The notes: generated by a model from the sequence alone, not told the origin. A stretch of DNA of 64,000 nt from Planctomycetia bacterium (GCA_016795155.1 JAEUIE010000019.1:62001-126000), one strand, 5' to 3'; shown: positions 28,308 to 44,098, counted from the stretch's first letter. Translations and numbers: made by a program.

Positions 28308-29984
28308 CTATTGAACAGGCAACTCGGCGCGGGCCAATTCAGTCCACGGAATGAGCCTTGGCATGCCATCCACCACCAGGTTGCATTCGAGGTTGTGTCC
28401 AACCGATGCCTGCTTGAGGAAGTCGACAACATCAGCATACGATGCCCCCAACTGCATGCACTGCGTCAGCACGGCTGGCACTGTGGCCTGGCAACGCCGT
28501 TTCACCACTTTGCCGCCCACTTCCGTCAGGCTCACGGTACATTCCGTTTCGCCTTCTCGCATGGTCACTACCAGCTCCGGCCCTGCCGTCAGGCTGCAGG
28601 GAGCCATCAGACTATGTCCTTTGCCAAAGAAAACGATCTCAGGTTTTCCGGTCGTTGATACATGCAGCATGGGCTTGGACTGTGGAGCCACCTCGAAGAT
28701 GGCGTAACCCGATTCGCGTGAATTTACCACCTTCAGACCAAGATCAGTTGGATGTGCTGTTCGCAAAGCTACAAACGCACCGTAACGGGTTTCCACACTG
28801 TCCTGAGCCATCAACTCCCGCAGGCGTGTTGCACAGGCCGTATCCTGTACTGCTGAAAGTGCTGTCAGAGCATAGGGACGCATTTCAGGAGATTTCCGGG
28901 CCACTTCTGCCAGAGTATCAGCAGCTTCCGCTGAGATGCCCAGATAAGCTAATGCTTCTGCAGAAGCAAATCTCACCTTCAGATTCTGATGCTTACAACC
29001 CCTCATCAAGTAGGGCTGCACCTCTCCACCAAGCGATTCCATTCGCAAGGCAGCTTCAAAACATTTATCCGGATTGAGAAGGTCTTCCGAGCACTGTTTC
29101 TGCCACATCAGTTTCTCTGCTGAACCAGCCTCGTACGGAATGCGTGTCAGCACTTCCAGATATCGCGGAATGTTGTACCGATATTGATCCGGAACACGCA
29201 GGGTGATGTATTTGCTGTCCTTCGGGTCTGCAATCTTGGCAAAGCTGCCCGAAGCCTGAACACGGAAGCGATCATCAATGGCAGCGCCAATCAACATGGC
29301 CTGGTCTGCCTTCTTGGAATATTCACTGCGAATGAGCAGTGCAAGCGGCCTTTCCTTTTTGAGCCTGGCCCCTGCAACAACCCGCCCTTTTCTGCTATCA
29401 CTTTCCTGCCCGGTTGCCAGCATCACAGGACCATTGGCAAATGCCCATTCGAAACCGGTTCGATACTCTGGATTACCACCCTTTTCAGAGAGTTCACGAA
29501 CGTCAGCTACATCTTTCAACGAACTCAGGAGCAGAAACCCACCACGAAGGCTGGTTGTCTGCCGGTCTTCATCGAGACATTTGACTTCAACATCGAACAA
29601 ATCACCCACCTTGGCGCCTGGCGCAACTTTGCCACGTACCAATACCACTGCTGCTTCTTTCGATGCAAGGAACTCGGTAGGTTTCTCCATTTTCTGTTGT
29701 GTCAGCATGCCCAGAGCAGCAGAACGTGCTGGCCCCTGCGGAATATTACCGCCTGTTCCAGGCAAGCCGACCACCACCCCATAACCCATCACTTCCATAG
29801 GCTCAAGGCCATATGGCGCTGCGGTTGAACCTATCATGCGTGGAAGTTTCTCTTCCCGTGATGGTAACTGCAGAATCTCTTTATTGCATCCGAGGTTGGA
29901 GACAAATACCGGTGCCAGGAGCAGGCAGCCAGATATGATGGGATACAATCTGGTAAATACCGATTTTTTCGGTTTGAAATCCAT
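28308..29984 (-). CDS. Lipoprotein with FlgI (P-ring)-like domain and HEAT-like repeats
   Basis: A 558-residue protein from the ATG at 29984 with GAGGGGGA upstream; an earlier in-frame start at 30071 would spoil the signal peptide. The leader ends in a lipobox (VFVSNLGCNK). Residues about 60-270 resemble the flagellar P-ring protein FlgI: GYGVVVGLPGTGG, then AAVVLVRGKVAPGAKVGD and TSLRGGFLLLSSLK match the FlgI phrases GYGLVVGLxGTGD, A.LPPFA.PG and SLRGGTLL. Residues about 320-440 are alpha-helical HEAT-like repeats (VRFASAEALAYLGIS; RYGAFVALRTAH). A C-terminal beta domain follows. There are no flagellar genes nearby, so it may form or anchor an envelope ring unrelated to motility. It precedes smc by nine bases. 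Confidence 0.75.
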   Translation of the reverse strand: MDFKPKKSVFTRLYPIISGCLLLAPVFVSNLGCNKEILQLPSREEKLPRMIGSTAAPYGLEPMEVMGYGVVVGLPGTGGNIPQGPARSAALGMLTQQKMEKPTEFLASKEAAVVLVRGKVAPGAKVGDLFDVEVKCLDEDRQTTSLRGGFLLLSSLKDVADVRELSEKGGNPEYRTGFEWAFANGPVMLATGQESDSRKGRVVAGARLKKERPLALLIRSEYSKKADQAMLIGAAIDDRFRVQASGSFAKIADPKDSKYITLRVPDQYRYNIPRYLEVLTRIPYEAGSAEKLMWQKQCSEDLLNPDKCFEAALRMESLGGEVQPYLMRGCKHQNLKVRFASAEALAYLGISAEAADTLAEVARKSPEMRPYALTALSAVQDTACATRLRELMAQDSVETRYGAFVALRTAHPTDLGLKVVNSRESGYAIFEVAPQSKPMLHVSTTGKPEIVFFGKGHSLMAPCSLTAGPELVVTMREGETECTVSLTEVGGKVVKRRCQATVPAVLTQCMQLGASYADVVDFLKQASVGHNLECNLVVDGMPRLIPWTELARAELPVQ

Positions 29985-30136
29985 GTCTTCCCCCTCGACA
30001 GTCTGCACGCCAGGAAATGGCTGCAATCCCCCAGGAAGGCAGGACGATAGCGTCCTCTCTATCTGTGTCAAGTTCAGGAATTTGTCATCATTTCTTTTGC
30101 TAGAACTAAAGGGCTAGGTCTGGCGCTTTAGGCAAC

Positions 30137-31327
30137 TTACATATTCTGCTGATCCACCTGCTTATCTGTCTGCAAGCCACACATCATTACTGCTGCAATC
30201 ACAGCAATTGCTGCGGTCACCAGAAATGGCACTTTGGCGCCAAAGTGATCGTAGAGCCAGCCAAATAACACACTGGCTGGCAGCACAATGACCCCTGTTA
30301 TGAAGTGATACCAGCCAAAGGCCTGTCCGCGTATCTTCGCAGGAACCATCTGCGCTACCAGTGCCCTTTCTGGCGGTTCGGTCATGGCATAATAGAAGGC
30401 GTAGACCATGAACAATCCAATGGCCACGTATTCAGAAGTTATCAAACCAAACAAACCATAAATCACTGCATACAACAACCAGCCAAGAATAATCAACCAT
30501 TTCGGTGTCACTACATCAGTCAGCTTACCAAAAACAAGGTTGCCTCCGCTTTTCAGCAGATGAAACACGCACCAGATGATAAGCAAGTATTTTTCATCAA
30601 TGATCCCTAACTCTTTCAGCCTGACAAGAATAAACATGTCGCTGGACGCGCCTAAAGAAAATACTGCAATCACCAGCATGAACCACCAGAAATTCCTGCC
30701 CAGTTCTTTGACCTGAAACCGGAACGGAGTCTTCTCCTCGCTCGATTGGCGAGGCTGTTCCTGCAGGCCAAACATCACCAGAAGGGTTACAATCATTCCG
30801 GGGATGATCGCCAGCAGCATCAGGAAACGCACTTCACCGGGCATCCAGAGCAGAAAGAGAAAGGCTATCACCGGCCCTAACGCAGCCCCCAGATGATCCA
30901 TCGCTCGATGAAAGCCAAACGCATACCCCCGTTGGTCTGCTGGTGTGGAATCGGCAATCAAGGCATCCCTGGCTGAAGTGCGTATGCCCTTGCCAAACCG
31001 GTCGCCTGAACGAATCAGAAAGACATGCCACCATGAAGTCGCCAAGCCTATGAGTGGACGCAAGAGTGCTGGCATGGCGTAGCCGGTAATAATCAGCCAC
31101 TTCCGCTTGGAAAGTCGATCTGACCATGCCCCGGCAAACAACTTCAACATGCTCGAAATGAAATCGGCAACTCCTTCTATCCATCCAATTACTTGCTTGC
31201 CCGCGCCTAACCCCAGGAGAAACACCGGCAGCAATGGCACAAACATCTCACTGGCCACATCGTTAAAGAAACTGGCCCAGGCTAACAGTAATACATTGCG
31301 ATGAAGCGGTTTCTTATTCATATCCAA
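30137..31327 (-). CDS. Major facilitator superfamily transporter
   Basis: A 396-residue protein with about 12 transmembrane helices. The loop 2-3 motif region reads GAWSDRLSKRKWLIITGY, the typical MFS motif A (GxxxDrxgrR/K). FNDVASEMFVPLLPVFLLG near the N-terminus and FGKGIRTSARDALIADS resemble the planctomycete/proteobacterial branch annotated as MFS efflux permeases. Substrate not predictable. The start (ATG 31327, or 31321) lies inside the end of the upstream Ddl-like gene (14- or 8-base overlap), so the two are translationally coupled. Confidence 0.88.
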   Translation of the reverse strand: MDMNKKPLHRNVLLLAWASFFNDVASEMFVPLLPVFLLGLGAGKQVIGWIEGVADFISSMLKLFAGAWSDRLSKRKWLIITGYAMPALLRPLIGLATSWWHVFLIRSGDRFGKGIRTSARDALIADSTPADQRGYAFGFHRAMDHLGAALGPVIAFLFLLWMPGEVRFLMLLAIIPGMIVTLLVMFGLQEQPRQSSEEKTPFRFQVKELGRNFWWFMLVIAVFSLGASSDMFILVRLKELGIIDEKYLLIIWCVFHLLKSGGNLVFGKLTDVVTPKWLIILGWLLYAVIYGLFGLITSEYVAIGLFMVYAFYYAMTEPPERALVAQMVPAKIRGQAFGWYHFITGVIVLPASVLFGWLYDHFGAKVPFLVTAAIAVIAAVMMCGLQTDKQVDQQNM

Positions 31328-32306
31328 GATGGTTTCTGACTAACTGGACAATCAGCTTTTCGTAAGTTGTTCCAGAAGCTCTGATCATGCGTGCCAACCC
31401 TGCTGATTCACCAAGATCGGGATTGGGGTTCACTTCCATGATGTAGGGCTGCTGATTATCATCCAATCTCAAATCAACCCGTGCATAATCTCTGCATCCG
31501 ACTAATTGAAAGGCCTGAAGCGCCAAGGATTGCAACTGTTCTGCCAATGCACTCGGTATCTGTGCCGGACATCGAGGTTGCATGGCCAGGTCATCTGCTG
31601 AACCGATATCCCATTTGCTTTCATAACTGACAATAGGCCAATCAACCCCCGGCTGTGGTGTGTACACCATTTCTGCAACAGGCAAGGCCATCAAGCCCTG
31701 GTTATCTATCACTCCAACATTAAACTCCGTACCAGGTAAATACTTCTCCACAAGAACCGGCGCCCCATAATCCTTCAGTATCTGCTCTACCTTGTTGCGT
31801 AGCGCCTGAATCGTACTCACCACGCTATCCTGATGAATGCCAATGCTCGCATCAGTTCCAGCAGGTTTTACGATTAAGGGCCAACTTGCCGGGACATGCA
31901 ATACATCAACCGACGAAACTACCTGAAATTCCGCTGTCGGCAAACCAGCGCCTTTCAATAGATATTTCGTCCTGACCTTATCTCGCCCCAGCACCATCGC
32001 TTCCAGAGGACAGCCGGTATAGGGAACCTTAAGCCATTCCAGTAGCCCGGCAATGTAATATTCGCTGGCAGGCCTGTCGCCAAATCCTTCAAACAGATTG
32101 AAGACCAGATCAGGCTTGTTCTCAGCAATTGACTTGAGCAGCTCCTCAGGCGACTTTTTCAACCCAGTCAGCGCAACCTGGTACTGGGCTTGTTGCAAGA
32201 CACGAGAGATCGTTTCGACTGTATGCAGCAGGTCGCGTTCTGATTCAGCATCGGGATGATTCGCTGGCAATACCGGCTCGTTATAAAGTATTACGATCCT
32301 CGCCAT
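31314..32306 (-). CDS. ATP-grasp ligase of the D-Ala-D-Ala ligase family
   Basis: A 330-residue protein. The N-terminal Ddl-type domain has DLVFNLFEGFGDRPASEYYI and VPYTGCPLEAMVLGRDK; the ATP-grasp part has PLIVKPAGTDASIGI, a phosphate-binding loop, and the metal-binding EVNPNPDLGESAGLA near the C-terminus. Housekeeping Ddl usually reads EVNTxPG at that place, so this is likely a paralogue with another carboxylate-amine substrate rather than the cell-wall enzyme. It acts in the cytoplasm. Overlapping the MFS transporter gene suggests that a dipeptide-like product might be exported (inference). Confidence 0.8.
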   Translation of the reverse strand: MARIVILYNEPVLPANHPDAESERDLLHTVETISRVLQQAQYQVALTGLKKSPEELLKSIAENKPDLVFNLFEGFGDRPASEYYIAGLLEWLKVPYTGCPLEAMVLGRDKVRTKYLLKGAGLPTAEFQVVSSVDVLHVPASWPLIVKPAGTDASIGIHQDSVVSTIQALRNKVEQILKDYGAPVLVEKYLPGTEFNVGVIDNQGLMALPVAEMVYTPQPGVDWPIVSYESKWDIGSADDLAMQPRCPAQIPSALAEQLQSLALQAFQLVGCRDYARVDLRLDDNQQPYIMEVNPNPDLGESAGLARMIRASGTTYEKLIVQLVRNHLGYE

Positions 32307-33782: not shown

Positions 33783-34697
33783 TTAAGCACCCTTCACTTT
33801 CGCCATCCGAAGAGTGCATCCGGGCAACTTAACTGAATCGATGAATGTCTTTGCAGCAGCCTCATCCGGGAAAACTGCAAACAACCCCGGCCCCCAGGAT
33901 GATTGTCCCAGTCCAATAGCGCCTGCAAGCTTCATCATCTCCAGGCGGGTGGCATTCAGTTCAGAACTGTAATCGCCTTGCTGTACTTTATGATAATGCG
34001 TGCCTGCTAGTCGGTTGTATTCAGTCAATGCTCTGGCAAAGATCTCAAACTGCCGGTTCTGAACCGCGTGCAGAATTTGATCGCGGATGATGTTTTGCAT
34101 CTGCCTTACTACTTCAACCTTTGCTTGCTGCAGTTGCGAAAACGCGCTTCGCTCCGATTCAGCAAATAATCCTTGCTCCTGTCCCGGCTCAACCAGCACG
34201 AAGGTCCATGATTCTGGAAATGGAATGGAAATCACTGGCGACTGCACCTTTCCATCAGCCGACTTACCTTGATCGAACAGAAAACCACCCTGTTCATAGC
34301 CAACTATTCCAATGCCAGAACGCGAACCTCTACCCGTCACGCAAGCCATCTCTATAGCATTCCAGGGTTTGCTGGCAGCAAGACAACAGGCCTGGGCCAC
34401 CGCCAAAGCTAACTGCGTACCCGTTCCCCAGCCCTGATGTGCAGGGGCATGACGTAATACCTCCAGCTTCAATGGCAATAGATCAGTGAACCGGCTTTTG
34501 AGATGATGGACTATTCGCGATACTGTCGATGGATCATCATCCTGGATGTGCCATTCTCCTGCATGCTCAGCTGTTACTTCAATGCCTGGTGTATCGACCA
34601 TCACACCCAGACCGCCATACACCAGGTCGAGTTCGGAAACCGGTACTGGCGCAAGCAGGCCAAAGTGCAATCGTCGATTGGTCCGAATACGAATCAA
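33783..34697 (-). CDS. Beta-ribofuranosylaminobenzene 5'-phosphate synthase
   Basis: A 304-residue GHMP-superfamily protein. It opens RTNRRLHFGLLAPVP, with GLGVMVDTP and the glycine-rich loop APAHQGWGTGTQLALAVA (about 87-104), all typical of beta-RFAP synthases; TGRGSRSGIGIVGYEQGG is the other strong family landmark. The enzyme condenses p-aminobenzoate with PRPP, losing CO2, in the first committed step of tetrahydromethanopterin biosynthesis. It is the last gene of a four-gene minus-strand operon that also supplies pABA (pabB), overlapping the DUF447 gene by four bases. Misassignment to another GHMP kinase is unlikely. Confidence 0.9.
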   Translation of the reverse strand: MIRIRTNRRLHFGLLAPVPVSELDLVYGGLGVMVDTPGIEVTAEHAGEWHIQDDDPSTVSRIVHHLKSRFTDLLPLKLEVLRHAPAHQGWGTGTQLALAVAQACCLAASKPWNAIEMACVTGRGSRSGIGIVGYEQGGFLFDQGKSADGKVQSPVISIPFPESWTFVLVEPGQEQGLFAESERSAFSQLQQAKVEVVRQMQNIIRDQILHAVQNRQFEIFARALTEYNRLAGTHYHKVQQGDYSSELNATRLEMMKLAGAIGLGQSSWGPGLFAVFPDEAAAKTFIDSVKLPGCTLRMAKVKGA

Positions 34698-35290
34698 GTT
34701 TCCGGCACCTCTGGCGGAGTATACTCAGCGACATATTTTCTCAAAAAATCGAACGCGGCATGCTCCCGCTTGCCACCCGTTTTTTCAACCAGTGGCTGCA
34801 ATCGATCCATTTCGCTCAGAATCTGCTCTTTCGGCAGCAGATGCAGCCTGGTTGCCAGGATGCTTGCTTCAATGACCGCAAACATGGCCCGATTAAATCC
34901 GACATGATCTCGTATTTTGCCAGACCAGACGATATCCACATCAATTGTTGCCCGTTCACTGGCATCATCAATGCGATCTACGCGAAACGCAAAATATCTA
35001 CAGGAATCAGGCAGATAGTAACCGTTGACGTGGTTTGATACGAGGAGCATGGGCCACGGCTCGATTTTCCCAACCGCAGCTTGTGCCAACAGGTAAACAT
35101 CATCGACAATATGGAACACACCTTCGGGATTCTGCACCAGGTTCTGGTATGTTTGTGAATTCTTGAACGGACGCAGTGTCAGATATTTGAAATGCCTGTC
35201 AACTCGTGGCCCCATGGGTGCAATATTGATCTGGCCAACGGCATTCACGGTGGTGACGAGCCCTTCAATAACCAGCGAATCACGCGACAT
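34694..35290 (-). CDS. DUF447 family protein of the H4MPT cluster
   Basis: A 198-residue soluble protein. The N-terminus VIEGLVTTVNAVGQINIAPM and the FHIVDDVYLLAQAAVG segment fit DUF447, a split-barrel, flavin-reductase-like family that recurs beside methanopterin biosynthesis genes in methanogens, methylotrophs and planctomycetes. The biochemical role is unestablished; a flavin- or pterin-related step is a reasonable guess. It overlaps beta-RFAP synthase by four bases and starts four bases after pabB ends, so it is tightly operonic. Confidence 0.82.
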   Translation of the reverse strand: MSRDSLVIEGLVTTVNAVGQINIAPMGPRVDRHFKYLTLRPFKNSQTYQNLVQNPEGVFHIVDDVYLLAQAAVGKIEPWPMLLVSNHVNGYYLPDSCRYFAFRVDRIDDASERATIDVDIVWSGKIRDHVGFNRAMFAVIEASILATRLHLLPKEQILSEMDRLQPLVEKTGGKREHAAFDFLRKYVAEYTPPEVPET

Positions 35291-35294
35291 AGTG

Positions 35295-36731
35295 TTAACT
35301 TACCGAACGCAGCAGAGGGGTACAAGCTAACGCAGACAGCATTCCCTGAGCCTTATCGAGAGTCTCCAGGTACTCCATTTCAGCATTGGAATCAGCAACG
35401 ATGCCACCACCTACCGGAAACTGTGCCCAGCCATCTCCCAGCGTAATGGTTCTAATCAAAATATTGGTATCCATGCAACCGCTGAATGAAATAAAGCCCA
35501 GGCAGCCACAATAGGCGCCGCGTGCAGTTGGTTCTAGCTCGGCAATGATCTCCATCGCACGTACCTTGGGAGCACCGGTAACCGAACCACCCGGAAGGGT
35601 CGCTTCCAGCACATCAAATGGGGTTAATTCACGTCGCATACATGATCGCACCGAAGAAACCAGATGATGCACACTCGCATTGCTTTCCAGCTTGCAGAGT
35701 TCAGGTACGCTGATCGAACCAAATTCTGAGACTCGGCCCAGATCATTCCGGAGAAGATCAACAATCATCACATTCTCAGCACGGTCTTTGGAGCTGTGTA
35801 CCAGTTCCTGTGCCATTGCTTGGTCGAGTTGCGGATCAGTTCGTCTCGGCCTGGTTCCCTTGATGGGTCGCGTTTCAATTTCGCCAAAATGATTAATCTG
35901 GATAAACCGTTCGGGCGATGAACTGGCCAGGATGTACTGCCCCATGTCAAAGTACCCCGCGCATTGTGCCGGGCTTTGGTACCTCAGATTCTGGTACAAT
36001 TCAACGGGATTACCTTCAAAGGGCATCATCAGCCGCTGTGCCAGATTGACCTGAAAACAATCACCGGCATGGGTGTACTCGATTCCCTTCTGAATGACCT
36101 CGCGAAATCCCTCCAGAGTAAAATTGCTGAAGACCCCCTCGTACTTAGGTAATGAATAACAGGGCGATTTCGGACATATTCGTTCAACCACACGTTCCGG
36201 CATAATGGGAAGAACTTTGCTTTCCAGCCAACTCAAAACCTGTTCCGCCCGCTCTTCCGCTCTATTCTGCTGCAGCACCCGTTCCTGTTCAGGTAAACCG
36301 GTGGAAATGAGAAAACTCTGATGCTCTAGATGGTCAATTGCAATCACCCAGTCGTACCAGCCCAGGCACAAGTCAGGCACAGCAAAATCATTCCAGCGCG
36401 GCGAAGGGATATTCTCCAGTGCCTGATTCACCCCATATCCCCATAAGCCAGCCAGGCCACCCTGGAACGGAGGCAAATAATCGAAATGAGCTGTTTGCCA
36501 TTGTCTCCCTTGCGATTTGACCTGCTGCAATCCTCTTCGAATCTGTGCAGGCCCATTCACTTTCACCACCTCGAATGGATCAGCAGCTAGGTATGAATAC
36601 CTTCCCAATACCGAATGATGGGTAGCACTGTCCAGGAAAAGTACATAAGGCAGATGGGCTATACGTATAAAGCAATCCCACGATGAAAGGCTGCCAGGCA
36701 GATGAATGACCAAAGGCTCAGGGGGTTGCAT
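35295..36731 (-). CDS. pabB: Aminodeoxychorismate synthase component I
   Basis: A 478-residue chorismate-utilising enzyme. The C-terminal domain holds AGDCFQVNLAQRL, the key motif RPIKGTRPRR, DLLRNDLGR and PGGSVTGAPKVRAME. PIKGT with Lys is characteristic of PabB; anthranilate synthase TrpE has PIAGT. With an amidotransferase subunit (not in the window) it makes 4-amino-4-deoxychorismate, on the way to p-aminobenzoate. Within this operon the pABA probably feeds beta-RFAP synthase for H4MPT as well as folate (inference). It overlaps the DHPS-like gene by 14 bases. Confidence 0.93.
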   Translation of the reverse strand: MQPPEPLVIHLPGSLSSWDCFIRIAHLPYVLFLDSATHHSVLGRYSYLAADPFEVVKVNGPAQIRRGLQQVKSQGRQWQTAHFDYLPPFQGGLAGLWGYGVNQALENIPSPRWNDFAVPDLCLGWYDWVIAIDHLEHQSFLISTGLPEQERVLQQNRAEERAEQVLSWLESKVLPIMPERVVERICPKSPCYSLPKYEGVFSNFTLEGFREVIQKGIEYTHAGDCFQVNLAQRLMMPFEGNPVELYQNLRYQSPAQCAGYFDMGQYILASSSPERFIQINHFGEIETRPIKGTRPRRTDPQLDQAMAQELVHSSKDRAENVMIVDLLRNDLGRVSEFGSISVPELCKLESNASVHHLVSSVRSCMRRELTPFDVLEATLPGGSVTGAPKVRAMEIIAELEPTARGAYCGCLGFISFSGCMDTNILIRTITLGDGWAQFPVGGGIVADSNAEMEYLETLDKAQGMLSALACTPLLRSVS

Positions 36732-38112
36732 TGGTATCCCCCTCTTGACCCTTGCGTGCTCGATGACTGATTTCCTCCTCAGTCAGGTAACCCCAGCGCA
36801 ATGCCTGGTCCTGCACATAATTCTTGCCTAGCTGCAGAGCAAGTTTTGCCTTGCACAGTTCGTATCCCAGGTAAAAAGCATGGGATGCTTCAATTGATGG
36901 ATCGCTTTTCAGCATTTCATCAAAAAGTTGAAATGGGTCAGAAGAAGCAAAATGTGATTCACCATTCAACGCGTGAAGCGTACCTGTTTCTGCAAACAGA
37001 CGATAATGGCGGTCTCTGATTTCCGAAGCCAACTGTTCGAAATAACTGTTTCCAAAAGCACGCAGCTTGCGATCCCGCAATGTCAGCAATCGATCATCCA
37101 CTTTTTTGGGTATGCGTTGATACACAACAGAATGATAGGCCAGGCGTCTGGCAATATCACATTCAATTACCGAACTCCGGGCATGATTGGCAACCGCCGT
37201 CGTCAGCACGCTGGATATCTGCCATTCCTGGCATAATGCCATCAGGATGAGATTGACACCGGCTGAATCAACTTCCGTTAACTCAGTCAGGTTACCAATA
37301 CCCATCATCATCGCGAATGCAGGATATTTCTTTCGAATCTCCGCATATCTCAGCAACGATGCCCCGAAACCCATTCCAATCGGTTCCAGCACCGGATCAA
37401 TGCGATAGGGCACTTGTCGAGAAGCAAGGAATTCAATGGTCTCATCCAGCGATTTCAGATCATGTGGCTGATCAGGGATGGCTACTACTTCACAGCCCCA
37501 GTCAACACAGGCTTCCCGATTGACCGAACTTACACTTAGCACCAGTTCCGCACCGGCTTCGCAACCCCAGGCTACCTCCTGCACATTGAACGTATCCAGA
37601 CTTACCCGGAAGCCTTCGTCCTTGAGGCATCTAACAGCATCACCGATTTCAAGCCAGGTGTTGCCCGGAATACATCCGAGGTCGATAACATCAGCGCCCT
37701 GTTGTTTGAACCTTCTGGCTTGTTCCAGCAGTTGTTCACGGGTCAGTGCAGGTGCATGGTTGATTTCTGCAATGATCTCGATGGAGTATTTGCCATAGTC
37801 CAGTGTTGATTTCTTGCCAAACAGTTCCGGCAGGTCTCGCACATCCTGTGGGCCGGGAGTCACAGAAACTCCAGTCGCCTTCTCCAACACCGACCAATCA
37901 CCCTGGCAAGCGCCCGGCACATAAATATGGTCAACTTTGTCAGGAATCTTTTCCAACCGCCGCATCACCCATTCGGGAGTCATCAACGCTGCAACGGTGA
38001 TATTGAGCACCAGCAGTTCATACTCGAAGCCAACACTGCTGGAAAGCGTTTTCAGAACATCACGCACTACCGGCTCTGCCAGCTTACCAGTGATGAATAG
38101 ATACCTGGGCAT
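36718..38112 (-). CDS. Dihydropteroate synthase-like protein (DUF6513), H4MPT biosynthesis
   Basis: A 464-residue protein. The N-terminal 120 residues (MPRYLFITGKLAEPVVRDVL) fit DUF6513; residues about 120-370 form a pterin-binding TIM barrel with EIIAEINHAP, GADVIDLGCIPGNTW and VSLDTFNV, the DHPS-like strands. Such proteins are found in archaeal and methylotroph methanopterin clusters and are thought to join the pterin to the ribofuranosylaminobenzene moiety. A normal folate DHPS is shorter and lacks the N-terminal domain. It is the first gene of the operon; a 73-base divergent gap separates it from the cytochrome-like gene. Confidence 0.87.
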   Translation of the reverse strand: MPRYLFITGKLAEPVVRDVLKTLSSSVGFEYELLVLNITVAALMTPEWVMRRLEKIPDKVDHIYVPGACQGDWSVLEKATGVSVTPGPQDVRDLPELFGKKSTLDYGKYSIEIIAEINHAPALTREQLLEQARRFKQQGADVIDLGCIPGNTWLEIGDAVRCLKDEGFRVSLDTFNVQEVAWGCEAGAELVLSVSSVNREACVDWGCEVVAIPDQPHDLKSLDETIEFLASRQVPYRIDPVLEPIGMGFGASLLRYAEIRKKYPAFAMMMGIGNLTELTEVDSAGVNLILMALCQEWQISSVLTTAVANHARSSVIECDIARRLAYHSVVYQRIPKKVDDRLLTLRDRKLRAFGNSYFEQLASEIRDRHYRLFAETGTLHALNGESHFASSDPFQLFDEMLKSDPSIEASHAFYLGYELCKAKLALQLGKNYVQDQALRWGYLTEEEISHRARKGQEGDTNATP

Positions 38113-38185: not shown

Positions 38186-39139
38186 ATGACAATGGCGAAT
38201 CACTCCCCCTGCCGGTTAACCTCACTCAGCAACCTGAACTGGCCTGTCCGCATCATGCTGGCTACTTTCATGGCCGCTGCTGGCATAGGATACATGACAG
38301 GCCTGCTGCAACTCGTGGTACAGCATTCCTCCACAGGCGACTCGCTCCCCACCCGCGAAGATGTAGTCAAAATATTTCACGGCCACACCGGTGAAAAGAA
38401 GACTCAGATTGAACGACTGATCGAAGCACCTGAAACCTTGCCCTTCAACGGTACAGGCAGCATGCGCAAGGCTTTCTTCGATAAGTCTGATGACTGGAAG
38501 GATGCCATCAAACAGAAACCGGAAGCTGAAGTTCGGAAGGAACGTGAGGGCGAAGCTTTGGCATTACTGGCCTGGTTGCGAAATGGTGCCAAAAAGGAAC
38601 ACTACGAGAAGGACGCTTTCCCTTTGCCTGAAACTCTGGCACAACAGCCTATTACCATCGATTTCCTGAAAGTAGATGACCAGGGCAAGCCGTCTACTCC
38701 CCGCACAGTATCCATTAAATCGCTCATCACCACCCGTTGTGCAGGTTGCCATGGATCTGGTGGCGAAGTTGCCAAGTTCTCGCTGGAATCCCATGAAGGA
38801 GTTGTCAAATACAACAAAGAGGCAACATCTGGGGCCATTCCCCTGCAGAGGCTCGCATCCATCACCCATACTCACATGATGGCGTTCGCTGTGTTGTTTG
38901 GCTGCACCGGTCTGCTGTTTACGTTGACACGTTACCCCGCCTGGATTCGCGCCATCTTTGGCCCCTGGGTTCTATTCTTCCAGGTTCTGGAACTGGGCAT
39001 GTGGTGGCTGGCCCGGCTGGATCCCTTCTTCGCAGAGTGCATCCGCATCTGCGGCGGCCTGGTCGGGGTTGGCCTTGCCATTCAACTGCTGGGCGGCTTG
39101 TACGATGTACTCGGACCAAAAGTAAAATCAGACGTCTAA
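38186..39139 (+). CDS. Membrane protein with single CxxCH heme site
   Basis: A 317-residue protein. A membrane anchor at about 23-45 is followed by a charged periplasmic region, a c-type heme motif CAGCH at 185-189 (SLITTRCAGCHGSGGEVAKF), and four C-terminal hydrophobic segments from about residue 228 (HTHMMAFAVLFGCTGLLFTL; WIRAIFGPWVLFFQVLELG). The heme is probably attached covalently on the periplasmic side. Histidines (ITHTHMMAF) at the entry of the first C-terminal helix might ligate a further cofactor. I know similar planctomycete proteins but not an assigned function; an electron-transfer or sensory role is possible. Confidence 0.75.
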   Translation: MTMANHSPCRLTSLSNLNWPVRIMLATFMAAAGIGYMTGLLQLVVQHSSTGDSLPTREDVVKIFHGHTGEKKTQIERLIEAPETLPFNGTGSMRKAFFDKSDDWKDAIKQKPEAEVRKEREGEALALLAWLRNGAKKEHYEKDAFPLPETLAQQPITIDFLKVDDQGKPSTPRTVSIKSLITTRCAGCHGSGGEVAKFSLESHEGVVKYNKEATSGAIPLQRLASITHTHMMAFAVLFGCTGLLFTLTRYPAWIRAIFGPWVLFFQVLELGMWWLARLDPFFAECIRICGGLVGVGLAIQLLGGLYDVLGPKVKSDV

Positions 39140-41958: not shown

Positions 41959-42942
41959 CTACGCTGCCTGTGAATAGGTTGCTAATTCCTGTTCAGGCTT
42001 GTGCATCGCCATCTTGCTGGCCACTGCAGCATGCAACAAGGGGATCAAAATCTCGTGCTGTCCAATCAGTTCATATCCCTTCTCTGCTGGCCGCTCCGTG
42101 ACATTCACTTTGCTTCGATACTGACTGTTTTTATCCAGGTTGACCGCAACCATCCCGTCCAGGCTATGCGCGAAATTCCGCACCACGCTGACAGCTTTGA
42201 GGAACACTTCAGGCATGATGACAGCGCTGCCCAGGTTCATCCATACGCCTCCAGCCATCTGGCTGAGCACCGTGCAGAGAAGCCTGAAATCGATCATGGT
42301 AGCCTCGCCTAGAGAGGATCCACTCACATGCGGATGCATGTGAACAATATCAGTACCCATGGCGACATGAACCGTACAGGGAATGCCAGCCTGGTATGCC
42401 GCCAGCACCACACTGACTTCCGGATGCCGCAATGGCAATTCACTCATGTACCGCCCCAGGCCATGTCCTAAACCATAACCTTCTGCCCCCATGCGGGTAG
42501 CAACTGCAAAAGCATCCGCTGTTTCCTGGGCCATTCCAAACTTGCCCTGTGGCAACTGCCTGGCGACATCCTCACTGGTCTTTCCCACCAGTGCCAGTTC
42601 AAAATCATGGATCGAAGCAGAGCCATTCATGGAAACCGACTGGATGATGCCTCGCTTGATCCAGTCAATGAGGTAAGTGCCACATCCTGTCTTAATGACA
42701 TGCCCACCCAAAGCAACTGCCACCCGTTTATCCGTTGCAACAGCCCGGCAGATATGATCACGCACTTCGCGCAGGTCTTTCGCTCCCAACTGACTGGGCA
42801 GACTGTCCAGCCAGTCGCCCACCGTGGTATCCGGACCTACAGGCTTACCCAGATCCTCTGCAAAAACCTTACTGGGGCGACTTTGCAATTCGTAAGTCAC
42901 CAAACCATGCAGATCAAACGGGCTGAGTGTTGGCGGAATCAT
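41959..42942 (-). CDS. Deoxyhypusine synthase-like protein
   Basis: A 327-residue protein (ATG 42942, AAGGA about five bases upstream; ATG 42948 also possible). The fold family is suggested by ALGGHVIKTGCGTYLIDW, SASIHDFELALVG, VHVAMGTDIVHMHPHVSG and NLGSAVIMPEVFLKAVS, which match the bacterial branch of the deoxyhypusine synthase (DS) family. In eukaryotes and archaea the enzyme modifies eIF5A using spermidine and NAD; bacteria have no eIF5A, and some bacterial relatives make homospermidine or have unknown roles. I do not see the GGGxPKN phrase of authentic DHS. The 5' end overlaps the end of lpxK by about 29 bases. Confidence 0.68.
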   Translation of the reverse strand: MIPPTLSPFDLHGLVTYELQSRPSKVFAEDLGKPVGPDTTVGDWLDSLPSQLGAKDLREVRDHICRAVATDKRVAVALGGHVIKTGCGTYLIDWIKRGIIQSVSMNGSASIHDFELALVGKTSEDVARQLPQGKFGMAQETADAFAVATRMGAEGYGLGHGLGRYMSELPLRHPEVSVVLAAYQAGIPCTVHVAMGTDIVHMHPHVSGSSLGEATMIDFRLLCTVLSQMAGGVWMNLGSAVIMPEVFLKAVSVVRNFAHSLDGMVAVNLDKNSQYRSKVNVTERPAEKGYELIGQHEILIPLLHAAVASKMAMHKPEQELATYSQAA

Positions 42943-44098
42943 AAGCATCCTTGCGAAAAGAAAGGAACGGATTGATGGAACGAAAACTGGAAGACGGGCA
43001 ATCCTTGTCCGCCTTGCCAATGGCTTGTTGTATACTGCTCTCCAGCAGTTCCTGATTTCGGGTGACTTCAATGCCGATTCGCAGGAACCAGAGTGGCTTA
43101 TTGCCTAGTTCATTGCATTGCAGTTTCACCCAGTCTTTCTGTGTGGTGATAATCCAGGTGCCTTCTGGCTGTTGCCTGCTCCAAGCTGCGAGCGACTCAA
43201 CATCGGTTCGAGTATAGTTATGATGATCGGGAAAAGTCTTCGTCGCAATCATGTCAGCGTTAAGCGACCGCAGCATTTGAAAAAAGCTCTCGGCATTGCC
43301 AATGCCACAGAATGCAGCGACACGCTTTCCGTCCAACTCGCCTGCTGTTCGTTCTTGTTCACTGTTTTGCAGATGTAACGGCGCGTGTCTGCACCAAACG
43401 ACAGGACAGTTGGGGACAATCGTTTTGATCCTCTTTTCGATTACATTGGCTTGCTGAATGTCGATTTGATCCGTTCTTGTCAGCAGCACCAGCCCTGCTC
43501 TTCTGAGCGATGATATAGGTTCACGCAGCATCCCGCGAGGCAGACAGTAGCCATATCCAAAGGGACGTGTCACATCTATGAGTACGATGTCGAGATTTCG
43601 CGCCAGCCTGCGATGCTGAAACCCATCATCGAGCAGCAGCAGTTCGCTTTCCAGTTCGTCGATAGCTGTCCGTGCTAATGCAACCCTATCTCGTCCCTGC
43701 AAATGAGGTACATCCACCAGATTCGCTTCCAGCAGCATGGCTTCGTCATTTTGCCCAACTGATGATTGATAGCCTCGACTCAACAAGGTCACCCGGCAAT
43801 CCAGTTGACGATAATATCGGGCGATCCATTCAACAACTGGTGTTTTGCCTGTGCCGCCTACCGTAAGGTTGCCTACCACTACCACCGGCACATCGACACG
43901 ATGCTGACGCAGCATACCAGCATTGTACATCCAGTTCCTGATGATCATGACCAGGCCGTAACCGAAACTCAGAACCAGAAGTATGCTCCTCAGCCCACCT
44001 GCAGCCAGTCCTTGTTTCTTTCCGGATATCAGTTGCTGCCACGATTCAACATCAAACTTCACAATTGCACCTGCAGGCACGAGCTTTTCAACTTCCAC
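42914..44098 (-). CDS. lpxK: Tetraacyldisaccharide 4'-kinase
   Basis: A 394-residue inner-membrane-associated kinase. It has an N-terminal hydrophobic helix (LLVLSFGYGLVMIIRN), then VGNLTVGGTGKTPVVEWIA (Walker A, about 75-93), LLSRGYQS, LLLDDGFQHRRLARNLDIVL and LPRGMLREP, all LpxK hallmarks. It phosphorylates the 4' position of the lipid A precursor, which implies lipopolysaccharide in this organism. The C-terminal 30 residues extend beyond the usual end and overlap the following deoxyhypusine-synthase-like gene by about 29 bases, suggesting translational coupling. Confidence 0.95.
   Translation of the reverse strand: MEVEKLVPAGAIVKFDVESWQQLISGKKQGLAAGGLRSILLVLSFGYGLVMIIRNWMYNAGMLRQHRVDVPVVVVGNLTVGGTGKTPVVEWIARYYRQLDCRVTLLSRGYQSSVGQNDEAMLLEANLVDVPHLQGRDRVALARTAIDELESELLLLDDGFQHRRLARNLDIVLIDVTRPFGYGYCLPRGMLREPISSLRRAGLVLLTRTDQIDIQQANVIEKRIKTIVPNCPVVWCRHAPLHLQNSEQERTAGELDGKRVAAFCGIGNAESFFQMLRSLNADMIATKTFPDHHNYTRTDVESLAAWSRQQPEGTWIITTQKDWVKLQCNELGNKPLWFLRIGIEVTRNQELLESSIQQAIGKADKDCPSSSFRSINPFLSFRKDAYDSANTQPV

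Follow-up and report, generated by a model that had tools for sequence, protein, structure and literature searches.

Four conserved genes in a planctomycete genome very probably form a biosynthesis cluster for tetrahydromethanopterin

Tetrahydromethanopterin (H4MPT) is a carrier of one-carbon (C1) units that is best known from methane-making archaea. To our knowledge, the use of H4MPT in bacteria is well studied, while parts of its synthesis are still without assigned enzymes. In this regard, we ask whether four closely packed genes of a planctomycete belong to this synthesis, and which steps their products could carry out. The analysed stretch of 64,000 nucleotides (G000:C19:62001-126000, hereafter the window) comes from a genome of 5.28 Mb that is assembled in 68 contigs and is 97% complete.

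Layout and conservation of the locus

Read 5' to 3' on the minus strand, the four genes encode a DUF6513 protein, PabB, a DUF447 protein and a homologue of beta-RFAP synthase (Table 1). The DUF6513 gene and pabB overlap by 14 bases, pabB and the DUF447 gene are separated by a gap of 4 bases, and the DUF447 gene overlaps the RFAP homologue by 4 bases, so that the TGA stop of the former and the TTG start of the latter have bases in common. This layout is exactly the one given in a first-pass annotation of the same sequence, which had read the locus as an H4MPT biosynthesis operon.

Table 1 Coordinates of the features in the window and in the compared loci.
Feature	Position	Strand	Product or ORF	Families and domains
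DUF6513 protein	36718-38112	minus	464 aa, ATG start, intact ORF	PF20123 + PF14251; N-terminal DUF6513, central pterin-binding TIM barrel (model residues 108-334), C-terminal PterinBD-DUF4346
PabB	35295-36731	minus	478 aa, ATG start, intact ORF	PF00425 + PF04715
DUF447 protein	34694-35290	minus	198 aa, ATG start, intact ORF	PF04289 + PF20766
RFAP homologue (mptG/orf4 type)	33783-34697	minus	304 aa, TTG start, intact ORF	PF08544; NF040726 and TIGR00144 both sub-threshold
Divergent neighbour	38186-39139	divergent from DUF6513
ATP-grasp gene	31314-32306			D-Ala-D-Ala-ligase-like
Protein with flagellar P-ring domain	28308-30071		587 aa	FlgI domain, HEAT-like repeats
Protein resembling deoxyhypusine synthase by eye	41959-43071		370 aa	ArgZ-like match, sub-threshold
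DUF447-RFAP fusion	L140:925-2475	plus	single ORF
DUF447-RFAP fusion	L145:1492-3042	minus	single ORF
PabB and adjoining diverged DUF6513 of G167	L047, 6183-9223
Second fhcD-type gene	L009:13260-14180 (G000:C27)	minus		fhcD-type formyltransferase
Second fae gene	G000:C16:26662-27151 (L010)		two frames

The gene next to the cluster is in divergent orientation and starts 73 bases upstream of the DUF6513 gene. It carries a CAGCH motif of the haem-binding (CXXCH) type, and a profile search of Pfam and NCBIfam returned no match for it. The neighbouring PFK, MFS, GNAT and CitMHS genes fall outside the block that is conserved in the compared planctomycete loci. An ATP-grasp gene in the window was considered as the glutamate ligase that the first-pass annotation had listed as missing, and it was set aside, being D-Ala-D-Ala-ligase-like by profile, overlapping the MFS gene and not being conserved beside the cluster in relatives. 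An adjacent MptN-type ligase is in any case not to be expected, since dephospho-H4MPT, known from Methylobacterium, lacks the moiety that such a ligase would add (PMC8141765). Further along the window, one protein combines a flagellar P-ring domain with HEAT-like repeats, and another resembles deoxyhypusine synthase by eye, its Pfam result being a sub-threshold ArgZ-like match alone.

For the distribution of the cluster, we searched 246 Planctomycetota genomes. DUF6513 was found in 23 of them, and MCH and strong RFAP matches in 22 each; these are the same 22 genomes, with one exception (G167), which has DUF6513 only. The co-occurrence gave a Fisher p of 1.7e-30, with relatedness ignored. Three further RFAP matches near 21 bits appeared to be other GHMP kinases. 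A scan of named genomes yielded 80 planctomycete loci, the flanks of which hold PabB in 46, DUF447 in 49 and the RFAP homologue in 41. Of 104 loci, 58 have PabB following DUF6513, and of 66 RFAP loci, 54 have DUF447 immediately before RFAP; the contigs behind both counts are often broken off, and some few places enter them twice. Two genomes, each from a different family, encode DUF447 and the RFAP homologue as one fused ORF, and in Limnoglobus roseus (NZ_CP042425.1; L128) all four genes of the window cluster stand in identical order and orientation. Because this order recurs across Planctomycetota, the four-gene arrangement is far beyond chance.

The first-pass annotation had also placed the users of the cofactor outside the window, which proved correct. 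The genome encodes mch on contig C28 (TIGR03120, 390.9 bits against a cut-off of 228.8), an intact fae on C21 (above the curated NCBIfam cut-off), an MtdB/C-type methylene-H4MPT dehydrogenase on C14 (above the Pfam cut-off), fhcC with two fhcD-type genes on C27 (curated NCBIfam cut-offs passed) and fhcA on C32 (594.5 bits against 392.75). None of the searched H4MPT C1 genes (mch, fae, mtd, fhcA, fhcC, fhcD) lies on the contig of the window itself. A genome devoid of H4MPT-linked C1 enzymes, which the annotation had named as evidence against its proposal, is therefore not what we found. The second of the fhcD-type genes, which likewise scores above the curated fhcD cut-off, is located at a distance of a few kb from fhcCD. 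A second fae gene is spread over two frames by an apparent frameshift, which is either real or an assembly error.

The gene set has already been described as linked to H4MPT (PMC4109929, PMC3615186). Gene lists of the pathway in Methylophilaceae include pabB, mptG, orf19 and orf20 (PMC4109929), in methylotrophs pabB is reported to occur commonly with H4MPT biosynthesis (PMC3615186), and genes for H4MPT/MF have long been known in planctomycetes (PMC5020050). The proteobacterial H4MPT islands (orf19-orf20-afpA-orf21-orf22, mptG, pabB; PMC3615186, PMC4109929) likewise contain a member of the RFAP synthase family, and on plasmids of Azospirillum (A. brasilense NZ_CP032347.1) and Phyllobacterium, DUF6513 adjoins DUF447 inside annotated H4MPT islands. 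Gene order alone would equate the DUF447 protein with the orf19 type and the DUF6513 protein with the orf20 type. In the proteobacterial islands these genes lie together with fhc, mch, fae, mtdB and the methylofuran genes, whereas the present genome encodes its C1 enzymes on other contigs, and homologues of afpA, orf21 or orf22 were not seen within the window cluster. The cluster is real and conserved, and it is an expected and ordinary feature of planctomycetes rather than a new system.

The RFAP synthase homologue and PabB

According to a genome-wide search, the RFAP homologue is present in a single copy. It has a C-terminal GHMP-kinase-type domain (PF08544, 29.8 bits against a cut-off of 21) and stays below both curated models of the enzyme, with 112.2 bits for NF040726 (cut-off 328) and 100.4 bits for TIGR00144 (cut-off 113.5). 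The NF040726 cut-off was reached in none of the 246 searched genomes of the phylum, the 22 mch carriers included, so this threshold is non-discriminating here. The window protein differs from M. thermautotrophicus MTH0830 (PMC6787355) and from ForT (PMC8183095) in scoring about 100-112 bits with the curated models, and it has in common with both the GHMP fold family, the PRPP-binding loop and arginines.

The residues equivalent to the PRPP ligands Arg19, His99, Thr106, Arg135 and Ser139 of ForT are kept in the window protein, within the stretches RLHFG, HQGWGTGTQ and GRGSRSG. It has also kept a GQSSWGP block that is absent from ForT. Unlike MTH0830 and ForT, it has Leu25 at the position of R26 (MTH numbering) and a two-residue insert in that loop. 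Among 36 other aligned planctomycete homologues, with loci containing frame errors excluded from the alignment, the equivalent residue is Arg in 34 and Pro in 2. The R26A variant of the M. thermautotrophicus enzyme is inactive (PMC6787355), but the equivalent R33 of ForT lies ~18 A from PRPP in the structure (PMC8183095), so the role of R26 is disputed.

In the tree, the window protein and the RFAP homologues split from three GHMP outgroups with a support of 100/99. The GHMP protein thus stays among the RFAP homologues, a position outside them being what the first-pass annotation had named as evidence against its proposal, but it sits weakly placed on a long end branch (2.32), outside any small well-supported set, and ForT falls inside the RFAP set too. 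With a divergent sequence and an unsure tree placement, the functional assignment is argued mainly from context, and we regard the protein as a divergent homologue which probably has the function of the enzyme.

The same divergence could be read in another way, with the GHMP protein as a ForT-like C-nucleoside synthase that joins PRPP to another aromatic carboxylate, the product of the cluster then being a different pterin or a C-nucleoside. Its sequence matches among solved structures are ForT-type entries only, which would agree with such a reading, as would the Leu at the R26 equivalent and the scores under the cut-offs of the curated RFAP models. However, this protein is the sole RFAP homologue of a genome with H4MPT C1 enzymes, it has the GQSSWGP block that ForT is without, and in this phylum its family occurs together with MCH and lies beside DUF447 or is fused to it. 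We therefore consider a ForT-like function very unlikely and keep the assignment as a putative RFAP synthase.

PabB, component I of aminodeoxychorismate synthase, matched PF00425 with 276 bits and TIGR00553 (pabB) with 333.3 bits against a cut-off of 328.4, and its PIKGT motif begins at residue 289. The search of the genome for chorismate-binding enzymes returned two, namely this PabB and one TrpE paralogue (574.5 bits against a cut-off of 517.7; PLAGT motif). The idea that the window holds a dedicated second copy was rejected, as the genome search returned one pabB. One PabA/TrpG-like glutaminase is encoded on contig C32, and a true FolP is encoded elsewhere in the genome. The presence of FolP means that pABA is needed for folate too. 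Since this is the only pabB of the genome, beside TrpE and a real FolP, PabB probably feeds folate synthesis as well as that of H4MPT.

These results do not bear out the view of the first-pass annotation that pabB was specially recruited to this locus, and its description of a self-contained arylamine-pterin branch is wrong, given that the PabA/TrpG glutaminase and FolP are on other contigs. In many planctomycete relatives, pabA (encoding the glutaminase) sits between pabB and DUF447, so the window represents a version of the cluster without pabA at that place and not a newly recruited pabB; the Isosphaeraceae-type loci (L063, L082) are without pabB too.

The single pabB and the presence of FolP might also be taken to mean that the locus mainly serves folate, with the other genes lying nearby by chance or as relics. 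The genome G167 (one contig, 99% complete) offers a case of this kind. There, a PabB with the PIKGT motif adjoins a diverged DUF6513 of 34% identity, in which the EINHAP and S-ID-SF motifs are altered, and a profile search of this complete genome found no MCH and no RFAP match. The pattern fits a loss of H4MPT with pabB retained for folate, and the DUF6513 of G167 may have become a relic or taken on a new role. In the window, however, none of the four genes is disrupted, the genome has mch together with the other C1 genes tested, and many families share the linkage, so that a folate locus is scarcely credible as an explanation here and a role in H4MPT synthesis is preferred.

The DUF6513 and DUF447 proteins

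The DUF6513 and PterinBD-DUF4346 domains of the first protein both pass their cut-offs (PF20123, 69.0 bits against 23.9; PF14251, 40.3 bits against 29.6). TIGR00284 scored 192.7 bits, under its cut-off of 256.65, and by this profile score the protein is filed under DUF6513 and not under TIGR00284. Its score for Pterin_bind (PF00809) was 20.3 bits, also under the cut-off (25.5). Despite a DHPS-like fold, we do not file it as FolP, of which the genome has a separate one. With the DHPS (FolP)/Sul enzymes it has in common a central barrel with GAD-ID-G and S-ID motifs. It differs from them in its extra N- and C-terminal domains, and it has EINHAP in place of the loop NATPDSFSDGG, which is the loop of the genome's own FolP.

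The predicted structure of the DUF6513 protein (mean pLDDT 84.4) has the fold of pterin-binding enzymes, and its reaction is read from the gene context. The barrel matched DHPS with a Z of 21.6 and methyl-H4folate methyltransferases with a Z of 20.9, scores that fail to separate the two groups; the Foldseek matches of the model include MetH and a methyltransferase component, and there is a weak tail match to MtrA. Together with the true FolP in the genome, these matches would suit a different pterin-binding TIM-barrel enzyme, for example an H4MPT methyltransferase or carrier, in a cluster that still serves H4MPT but leaves the condensation to FolP or another enzyme. We judge this unlikely, though by no means negligible. 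By sequence profile, the protein matches DHPS and Sul almost exclusively (best E 4e-6 and 1.6e-5) and methyltransferases not at all, and in planctomycetes the gene sits among the arylamine-branch genes, not among C1 enzymes. We thus retain DUF6513 as the candidate condensing enzyme.

In the DUF447 protein, DUF447_N (PF04289, 64.8 bits) and DUF447_C (PF20766, 60.5 bits) are both above the cut-off, and the predicted structure (mean pLDDT 94.6) has an FMN-binding split-barrel type fold. The model matches the structure 3b5m from Rhodopirellula baltica, with 37% identity, as well as the archaeal homologues 2nr4, 2iml and 2ptf, which are FMN-bound according to their entry titles; FMN is absent from the title of 3b5m, the nearest of them. 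All four structures are direct homologues of the window protein, and our literature searches returned no relevant published function for DUF447 or for 3b5m, 2nr4, 2iml and 2ptf. The predicted FMN-type fold, combined with the DUF447-RFAP fusions, points to a step adjoining RFAP formation that would depend on FMN.

Proposed pathway and its implications

The observed gene order, families and folds, the C1 enzymes found in the genome, the co-occurrence, the synteny, the fusions and the published gene lists all support the H4MPT assignment of the first-pass annotation. We hold it very probable that the locus is the planctomycete biosynthesis cluster for H4MPT, probably dephospho-H4MPT, with the following scheme of steps. 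In this scheme, of which we infer every substrate and reaction, pABA would be used in preference to 4-hydroxybenzoate. PabB, together with the PabA/TrpG glutaminase encoded elsewhere, would produce aminodeoxychorismate, from which pABA derives. The GHMP-fold RFAP synthase homologue would then combine pABA and PRPP into a C-riboside arylamine, with loss of CO2 and PPi. The DHPS-like DUF6513 protein would most likely condense this arylamine with 6-hydroxymethyl-dihydropterin pyrophosphate, and the FMN-type DUF447 protein would most likely catalyse a redox reaction of the arylamine or of its pterin conjugate. Our best guess for that step, drawn from general knowledge of the pathway, would be that the ribofuranosyl group is reduced to the 1-deoxyribitol form. 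The finished cofactor would serve Fae, Mtd, Mch and Fhc, which are encoded on other contigs.

The enzyme of methanogens has been named RHP synthase, that is, for a route through the phenol (PMC8183095), and a phenol-to-aniline route in methanogens is attributed to White 2011 as cited in PMC3261824. Given this methanogen route via the phenol, the linkage of pabA and pabB in planctomycetes is of some interest for the bacterial route. We tentatively put forward a more specific joint reading, which is possible but which we would not yet expect to hold in all its parts. In it, DUF447 would be an FMN-dependent reductase of the H4MPT arylamine branch that acts directly on the product of RFAP synthase, DUF6513 would be an H4MPT-specific analogue of DHPS, and the pabB/pabA linkage would mark a bacterial pABA route, unlike the phenol-to-aniline route of methanogens. 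The overlap of the two genes and the DUF447-RFAP fusions would then exist because DUF447 acts directly on the RFAP synthase product.

For the search for the enzymes of this pathway, the adjacency of the genes, the two DUF447-RFAP fusions and the near-strict co-occurrence with mch narrow the field to DUF6513 and DUF447. The candidate chemistries are those of a DHPS-like condensing enzyme for DUF6513 and of an FMN protein for DUF447, which gives an unassigned flavin protein a testable job. In addition, pABA as the precursor in bacteria is supported at the genomic level by pabB and pabA being linked to the arylamine genes.
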